Origin: Megasphaera massiliensis
GTDB lineage: Bacteria > Bacillota > Negativicutes > Veillonellales > Megasphaeraceae
Length of the DNA: 60,129 nucleotides
NCBI RefSeq assembly: GCF_000455225.1
Contig: NZ_HF954559.1
Location: 117,680 to 177,808 of the forward strand
Direction: 5' to 3'
The position numbers were made by a program, and so were the translations under genes. Positions within the stretch are counted from its first letter, which is position 1. Each line of letters opens with the position of its first letter. Below, piece by piece: positions 36-1,419 of the stretch. Under the pieces are notes generated by a model that made no database searches, was not told the DNA's origin, and saw only the letters and a list, made by a program, of their open reading frames with translations.

Positions 36-64
36 TTGACTATTAAAATAGACGGATGTATAAT
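36..64 (+). promoter_or_regulatory. Promoter of the T-box leader
   Basis: A TTGACT -35 box (36-41) and a perfect TATAAT -10 box (59-64) are separated by 17 bp. This predicts a transcript starting near position 71, just upstream of the T-box Stem I. Confidence 0.7.
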
Positions 65-70
65 TATCAC

Positions 71-352
71 CAACAAATACAGAACAGTGTTGAATGGAAG
101 TAGTAATGTTAGGGATTTCATGACAGAGACCTGCTATAGGCTGAGAGGCAGGATGGAATCCCGGCGTGAAGTCATCCAGGAGCTGCTGCCCGAACGCAGA
201 TTTGCCAGTAGACGCAGCCGGCAGGCAACCGTTATCCGGCCAGGCATTGGAAGGGGAACTCCGGAGATGCTGGAAAAGTGGTCGTTATGACAATAAGAGT
301 GGTACCGCAGAGTGAAGGCTTTGTCTCTTTTTAGAGGCAAAGTCTTTTTTTT
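71..352 (+). promoter_or_regulatory. T-box riboswitch, probable valine specifier (GUC)
   Basis: The conserved T-box AATAAGAGTGGTACCGC lies at 292-308. It is followed by an intrinsic terminator: stems 317-328 and 333-344, then a run of eight T. Upstream, Stem I can be folded. GGGATT (112-117) pairs with AATCCC (157-162), and an AGAGA bulge and a GC-rich distal stem (130-152) lie between them. The specifier loop has the AGTAGTAA side at 99-106 and GTGAAGTCA at 166-174. By analogy with the B. subtilis glyQS loop, where the specifier is followed by a single A and then the closing stem, the specifier is GUC (171-173), a valine codon. The stem III region AGTAGACGCAGCC is also present. In this class, uncharged tRNA stabilises the antiterminator and lets transcription continue, here into a BASS-family transporter. 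The T-box itself is clear; the specifier is a manual fold. Confidence 0.9.
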
Positions 353-417
353 GCTCCATCAAAACCGTTTGCGTATTTGTATCTTATTTAGTGTAATGTG
401 AAAGGATGTGCCTTACT

Positions 418-1419
418 ATGATGGATTTCATCGGAAAGTTAAGCGGTTTTGTTGGAAAGAATTTGACCTATATCGTCCTCGTCGTCGTTGTGGCAGCTTA
501 CTTTATGCCCGGTGCCTTTTTATGGGCCGTGCCGCATACGGTCCTCCTCTTGGGGGTCATCATGTTCGGCATGGGCATGACCCTTCATGCCAGCGACTTT
601 AAATTGATCCTCCAGCGGCCGAAGGAAGTTCTCGTCGGTTGTACCGCTCATTATACGATCATGCCCCTCTTGGCGTATGGCCTGGTCCTGGCCTTTGAAA
701 TGCCGCCTGAAATCGCCGTCGGCATGATTCTCCTCGGGTCTTGTCCGAGTGGTACGGCGTCGAACGTCATGGGGTTCTTAGCGAAAGCTGACGTTCCCTT
801 GTCCGTTTCCATTACGACCTGCTCGACCTTGTTGGCGCCGATCATGATGCCTTTTATCGTTTGGGGTCTTGCTGGTCAGTGGGTTGAAGTCTCCTTTGCC
901 GCCATGGCCATGACGGTTATGAAAGTTATCTTAGTTCCCCTGGTTTTAGGTCTTTTGGCTCATCGTCTCATGGGGGAAAAGCATATCGCTTCTTTATCGA
1001 AGGTATTGGTCCTTGTTTCAGCCTTTGGCGTTTTGGTCATCGTCGGCGGCGTCATCGCTATCAATGGTGCTAAGATTTTAGATATGGGCATCTTCATCAT
1101 CCTCATGGTTCTCCTCCATAACCTCGGCGGTTTCCTCTTAGGTTATGTCGTTACGGGTAAATTGGGACTCGGGAAAAAGCAGCAGCATTCCGTTACTTTG
1201 GAAGTCGGAATGCAAAACGATGCCCTGGCCATTTCCTTAGTATCGGTATTCTTTGCCCCGGCTGTCGCCATTCCGGCTGCTGTCGGAGCCGCCATCCATC
1301 AAGTAACGGGATCTATCTTGGCGGGAATCTTTGCCCGTCATATGGAAGCTCGGGAACAGAAACAACGTGAGGCCATCAAGGCGCAGGCCGTCATGGATGC
1401 CGTACCGGGAAATCATTAG
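418..1419 (+). CDS. BASS family (bile acid:sodium symporter-like) transporter
   Basis: This 333-residue integral membrane protein has about nine or ten hydrophobic segments. It carries the SCPSGTASNV-type unwound-helix motif of the BASS fold and the EVGMQN motif typical of YocS/PanS-like members. The family couples Na+ to uptake of organic acids such as bile acids, pyruvate or ketopantoate. Two in-frame ATGs exist. The first (406) overlaps the AAAGGA ribosome-binding site (401-406), so the start at 418 (MMDF) is preferred. It is the only gene between the T-box leader and a terminator, so transcription should depend on tRNA charging, apparently tRNA-Val. A branched-chain 2-keto acid or ketopantoate-like substrate is an inference from that control, not from the protein sequence. 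Confidence 0.88.
   Translation: MMDFIGKLSGFVGKNLTYIVLVVVVAAYFMPGAFLWAVPHTVLLLGVIMFGMGMTLHASDFKLILQRPKEVLVGCTAHYTIMPLLAYGLVLAFEMPPEIAVGMILLGSCPSGTASNVMGFLAKADVPLSVSITTCSTLLAPIMMPFIVWGLAGQWVEVSFAAMAMTVMKVILVPLVLGLLAHRLMGEKHIASLSKVLVLVSAFGVLVIVGGVIAINGAKILDMGIFIILMVLLHNLGGFLLGYVVTGKLGLGKKQQHSVTLEVGMQNDALAISLVSVFFAPAVAIPAAVGAAIHQVTGSILAGIFARHMEAREQKQREAIKAQAVMDAVPGNH

Follow-up and report, generated by a model that had tools for sequence, protein, structure and literature searches.

T-box RNAs respond to starvation. Most BASS transporters take their name from bile acids, and to our knowledge very few bacterial members have a known cargo; in plants, the plastid proteins BASS5/BAT5 and BASS2 are a 2-keto acid transporter and a pyruvate transporter, respectively. 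Among BASS relatives, which carry small carboxylates, ASBT_NM holds the terminal hydroxyl of pantoate through Asn295 and His294, and this protein bound pantoate but not ketopantoate, a preference for which Asn265 was blamed (PMC10645422). T-boxes in front of branched-chain transporters are already known from the LIVCS family (PMC2494555). Among the papers searched, we found none that connects a T-box with a BASS gene.

Such a pairing is present in Megasphaera massiliensis, in a window of 60,129 nucleotides (the whole stretch that was analyzed; contig NZ_HF954559.1, positions 117,680 to 177,808 of the forward strand). A first-pass annotation had placed a T-box before a BASS gene here, and both elements are borne out. 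The leader matches RF00230 at 81-331 on the plus strand (cmscan; 100.3 bits, E 5.8e-21, full length 1-219/219, above the gathering score of 93), the sole Rfam match within the window, and the gene product matches Pfam SBF PF01758 at 142.5 bits (1.7e-41; cut-off, 24.3). The window opens 80 bases upstream of the leader match. Features are as follows, in window positions except for the last.

36 to 64, plus strand: promoter, read from the sequence (-35 TTGACT at 36-41, 17-nt spacer, -10 TATAAT at 59-64)
71 to 352, plus strand: T-box leader RNA, from the Rfam match at 81-331 and the consensus fold
171 to 173, plus strand: specifier GUC (Val), with A174 and then the basal-helix strand UCCA behind it, from alignment and consensus fold
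296 to 310, plus strand: T-box sequence AGAGUGGUACCGCAG, with a UGGU bulge at 300-303 predicted to pair with A73-CCA of tRNA-Val
315 to 352, plus strand: intrinsic terminator, with a 14-bp stem (315-328/333-346), a UUUU loop, and a U-run at 345-352
401 to 406, plus strand: probable ribosome-binding site AAAGGA, read from the sequence
418 to 1419, plus strand: BASS-family transporter gene, 333 amino acids from the ATG at 418; the open reading frame opens at the ATG at 406
Contig 28, 114068 to 115401 (L021:13069-14402), outside the window, 3.7 kb upstream: tandem twin with an AUC specifier

The promoter, which like the terminator is absent from the first-pass annotation, is near-perfect, and the leaders of orthologues retain its TTGAC...TATAAT arrangement. 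The specifier had been read as GUC from a fold made by hand, and an alignment and a consensus fold, the latter built from 22 leaders of orthologues, give the same codon at 171-173. In the consensus fold (56 pairs, 31 with compensatory changes), GTGAA-GUC-A lies in the internal specifier loop that immediately precedes the basal helix UGGR/YCCA on its 5' side, and the frame rule takes the specifier from positions 2-4 counted from the loop end (TBDB, PMC7778990). Two other frames, AGU (then C) and UCA (then U), were rejected because they conflict with this rule, with the orthologue alignment, and with the genome's own valS leader, which has GUC-A-CCC at the specifier position; the ileS leader has AUC-A at the equivalent place. 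The genome also encodes a tRNA-Val(GAC), ending in A-CCA with discriminator A (A73), that matches both the specifier and the UGGU bulge. Given the fold, this tRNA, and the valS and ileS leaders, the Val reading is well supported, as is, on sequence grounds, the assignment of the leader to the tRNA-Val type of T-box, with read-through on uncharged tRNA as its predicted response. The terminator is supported by the sequence and by columns 281-312 of the consensus fold. For the gene behind it, the ribosome-binding site makes 418, not 406, the best placed start codon.

The encoded protein scores 234.9 against the bass subfamily model TIGR00841, under the curated cut-off of 326.3, and 219.9 bits over most of its length against the PanS equivalog NF047939, missing the cut-off of 400. 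Its nearest solved protein is ASBT_NM (7e-74; 43% identity). The AlphaFold model (pLDDT, 90.5) has the ten-helix crossed-helix ASBT fold and matches ASBT_NM with a TM score of 0.85-0.88, with a Z score of 46.8 and 1.5 A over 308 residues when compared to 8oyf.

Upstream of the window, on the same contig, an operon under an Ile T-box carries ilvC-ilvB-ilvN-ilvD, by names assigned from the gene sequences. It is followed, in order, by a PanS-type BASS gene, a DUF554 gene, a uracil-DNA-glycosylase-like gene, and the twin, whose T-box has AUC (Ile) as its specifier and whose BASS gene shares 91% identity with that of the window. The window gene is thus half of a tandem duplicate, and in another genome (G022) the two copies adjoin each other. 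Of the 20 T-boxes in the M. massiliensis genome, those of branched-chain type precede ileS, valS, ilvC, leuA, the L019 gene (Leu-type), an MFS transporter gene (Ile), and both BASS genes. The MFS transporter belongs to the anion:cation symporter type and stands behind an AUC leader on contig 27 (L005:1501-3166). With D-galactonate and 4-hydroxyphenylacetate permeases as its best models, it is a further transporter of the organic-acid type controlled by branched-chain tRNAs. Other T-boxes of the genome include a Phe-type leader (UUC) before a sodium:solute symporter (L001:1501-1817, contig 28), in which two successive antiterminator-like blocks occur (GGTGGTACCGCG twice), and a Cys-type leader (UGC; L010, contig 1, 106054-106268, minus strand) heading a gene that resembles a uroporphyrinogen decarboxylase/methyltransferase-type protein. 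In the stretch searched, a single in-frame TGA occurs in a further BASS gene (L063:3983-4912, minus strand, contig 5), and its counterpart in G022 (L068) has one too.

In 61 genomes of the order, the window gene has 14 close homologues (70-100% identity), which come from ten Megasphaera genomes, and each of them has a T-box core some 105-150 bases upstream. With the set widened by scans of genome contigs, through which Dielma fastidiosa was added, and of 380 Negativicutes genomes, a T-box is present at 28/28 clade genes from 24 genomes of Megasphaera, Acidaminococcus, Phascolarctobacterium, a related genus, and Dielma. Roughly 100 further BASS genes were examined, and apart from one in Pectinatus none has its own T-box. 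In the maximum-likelihood tree, the 27 T-box rows (without Pectinatus) make up one starred group with support of 98/96; Dielma is basal on a long branch, and its placement is less sure. The Pectinatus haikarae gene (L122) is not a clade member and falls elsewhere in the tree. It was rejected as a counter-example, as its leader has an Ile specifier and heads a BASS-ilvD operon, so that it reads as an ilv leader. Non-clade BASS genes adjoin ilvD in three arrangements (L122:4848-7669, from P. haikarae; L021:8697-11509; and L227:13003-15647), and this recurrence suggests a second tie between BASS genes and the ilv pathway. One Phascolarctobacterium metagenome-assembled genome (L194, upstream of 1501) has a T-box that apparently lacks the distal half of stem I, which may be an assembly fault.

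Specifiers in the clade are AUC (Ile) in 19 cases, GUC (Val) in eight, and CUC (Leu) in one, and in genomes with two copies they always differ (Ile and Val three times, Ile and Leu once). The tree requires a minimum of three specifier changes, all inside the Ile/Val/Leu set. As we read it, an ancestral Ile specifier would have become Val in one Megasphaera branch and then Leu in M. cerevisiae, with the twin returning to Ile. This distribution qualifies the earlier proposal of a valine-responsive importer: control by tRNA-Val, the importer logic, and the branched-chain link stand, but valine alone does not, given the AUC and CUC orthologues and the AUC twin. It also bears on the reading of these genes as bile acid transporters or bile-resistance genes, for which there is the family name and the annotation of gut Megasphaera, strain NM10 having bile acid:sodium symporters listed among its bile-resistance features (PMC3832451). 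However, NM10's own copy (L073) has a Val T-box and falls in the clade, and control by branched-chain tRNAs makes no sense for bile, leaving this reading scarcely credible.

Pocket residues were located by reference to the pantoate-bound structure of ASBT_NM (PMC10645422) and tabulated for 27 clade rows and 41 others. Asn295 is replaced by Gln throughout the clade (27/27); Gln is found in none of the 41 others, of which 38 retain Asn. Fisher's test of Gln295 against the T-box gives 2e-29, a figure that relatedness makes meaningless as a probability, and the tree, with one T-box clade plus Pectinatus, is for that reason the fair statement. Gly267 is Ala and Ile203 is Val, each in 26/27 clade rows, and Ser266 is Asp in 21/27 (D272 in the window protein). 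The carboxylate and C2 contacts Thr112, Ala113, and Asn265 are retained, Asn265 being invariant. Of the positions assigned to the sodium site, Ser114, Asn115, Ser128, Thr132, Glu260, and Gln264 are kept in the window protein. Gln77, which we take to be a further sodium-site residue, is His there and in 20 of the 27 clade rows. From the conserved site residues, with this one changed, we infer sodium coupling.

The pocket substitutions weigh against pantoate or ketopantoate, the cargo of a PanS-type importer, which would be tied to valine via 2-ketoisovalerate. Such a cargo could be argued from PanS being a BASS member, from the pantoate bound by the closest solved relative, and from some clade genomes (G013 and G016) that lack panB. 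Against this, panB is present in the M. massiliensis genome and most others of the genus; as its presence does not track the BASS gene, we discarded it as a decider of cargo. The Ile and Leu specifiers of orthologues, with Ile also in the twin, are unlinked to pantoate; and the site has changed (N295Q, G267A, I203V, and S266D). Ketopantoate, named in the first-pass annotation and linked to valine only, is accordingly disfavored by the N295Q pocket, the Ile and Leu specifiers, and the PanS score, and we regard this class of cargo as very improbable.

Branched-chain acids lack pantoate's terminal hydroxyl. A pocket without the Asn295 contact and with Val203, in which the carboxylate and C2 contacts are kept, counts in favor of a branched-chain carbon skeleton, as does the position of the twin downstream of the Ile-T-box ilvC-B-N-D operon. 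Among such skeletons, the invariant Asn265 speaks against a plain 2-oxo acid. A broad-range importer of branched-chain 2-oxo acids is possible, whereas 2-ketoisovalerate alone would not explain leaders of the Ile and Leu types.

We also consider it possible, if somewhat doubtful, that the clade carries branched-chain amino acids themselves, having shifted from organic anions to zwitterions. We know of no BASS member that carries a zwitterion, which weighs against this shift, and BrnQ importers are already in all genus genomes. However, transporters controlled by T-boxes mostly carry the amino acid itself, which counts against a skeleton cargo (PMC2494555). The confinement of the specifier switches to Ile, Val, and Leu is likewise in keeping with amino acids, and genomes without ilvC, as in Phascolarctobacterium and Dielma, both with a T-box BASS gene, must import branched-chain amino acids or their skeletons. 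Within the pocket, the invariant Asn265 accepts a C2 donor, hydroxyl or ammonium, and the Asp266 that most members add could serve an ammonium group, again counting against a skeleton. Asp266 is not clade-wide, being absent from Phascolarctobacterium (Ser/Ala) and Dielma (Ser), and with both under the same Ile T-box, we rejected it as proof of amino acid cargo.

Genes beside the transporter gene and elsewhere in the genomes also count in favor of a skeleton cargo. BrnQ-type amino acid importers are found in 15/15 genus genomes, and none in the M. massiliensis genome is behind a T-box, which leaves room for a different BASS cargo. A GldA/HcxA-like Fe-ADH gene lies 18 nt downstream of the BASS gene in Dielma, in the same operon, and is divergent from it in two rumen genomes (L077/L078); a GlcD-type dehydrogenase gene is divergent from the BASS gene at two Megasphaera loci (L057/L060). 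These oxidoreductases are of 2-hydroxy-acid or related types, although they differ by locus, their substrates are uncertain, and they represent only about three independent events. Class I aminotransferase genes flank the BASS gene at L061 and L062, and branched-chain aminotransferases (PF01063) are too patchy to serve as a decider of cargo. Separately, Megasphaera homologues of the Fe-ADH (L225-L229) cluster with CobT- and LarC-like genes and with one or two genes resembling CstA, and some genomes have this cluster close to a second ilv operon.

Another conceivable cargo is branched-chain fatty acids (isobutyrate, 2-methylbutyrate, and isovalerate), which anaerobes can reductively carboxylate to 2-oxo acids. 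The three acids map one-to-one on Val, Ile, and Leu, the carboxylate site is kept, and rumen and gut anaerobes live among such acids; Megasphaera elsdenii is reported to form them from amino acids (PMC10819428). But the C2 contact made by the invariant Asn265 and the helix N-terminus would have no partner, and neither an acyl-CoA ligase nor a 2-oxoacid oxidoreductase was recognized beside the gene in open reading frame lists and a family-library search of some neighbors, so that fatty acids appear an improbable cargo.

Taken together, the evidence points to the clade serving branched-chain amino acid supply, not bile acids or vitamin B5. We tentatively infer, from sequence, that the window encodes an importer of 2-oxo or 2-hydroxy acids under a tRNA-Val T-box, with direction, sodium coupling, and cargo all part of that reading. 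Under this proposal, the T-box would attenuate transcription of the importer gene until uncharged tRNA-Val accumulates and pairs with GUC at 171-173 and with the UGGU bulge, favoring the antiterminator, so that the importer is made; the direction of transport follows from this induction by uncharged tRNA. The sodium-coupled importer would then bring in a branched-chain carboxylate, the leading candidate being a branched-chain amino acid's carbon skeleton in its 2-oxo or 2-hydroxy acid form, and an aminotransferase would convert it to the amino acid, after oxidation in the case of a hydroxy acid, refilling the valine, isoleucine, and leucine pool. The window copy and its upstream twin would act as a duplicate pair, with leaders sensing Val and Ile.

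With its clade-wide tie to branched-chain tRNAs, one BASS branch is left with a few testable compounds as its cargo, and the bile-resistance interpretation of these gut Megasphaera genes is corrected. The clade also provides a natural series of specifiers on one transporter (Ile to Val, Val to Leu, and Val back to Ile), in which a single genome contributes a tandem pair.

Compared with known systems, the leader shares with valS-type Val T-box leaders (RF00230) the stem I specifier loop, GUC followed by A, the UGGU bulge, and the antiterminator/terminator switch, but it controls a BASS gene. The protein has the fold of Neisseria ASBT_NM (3zux, 8oyf, and 8oyg) and keeps its Thr-Ala-Ser-Asn carboxylate site, Glu-Val-Gly-Met-Gln-Asn, and His294, and it differs from that pantoate-binding protein by Asn295 to Gln, Gly267 to Ala, Ser266 to Asp, Ile203 to Val, and Gln77 to His. 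With PanS (NF047939) it has the BASS family in common, yet it falls below the cut-off and its pocket differs, and the PanS-type genes of these genomes lack a T-box of their own, unlike the window gene. The plant plastid proteins BASS5/BAT5 and BASS2 also belong to the BASS family, and the 2-oxo acids that they transport have ties to the metabolism of amino acids. The LIVCS/BrnQ transporters likewise place a branched-chain T-box before a transporter gene, but they belong to a family unrelated to BASS and carry the amino acids themselves (PMC2494555).
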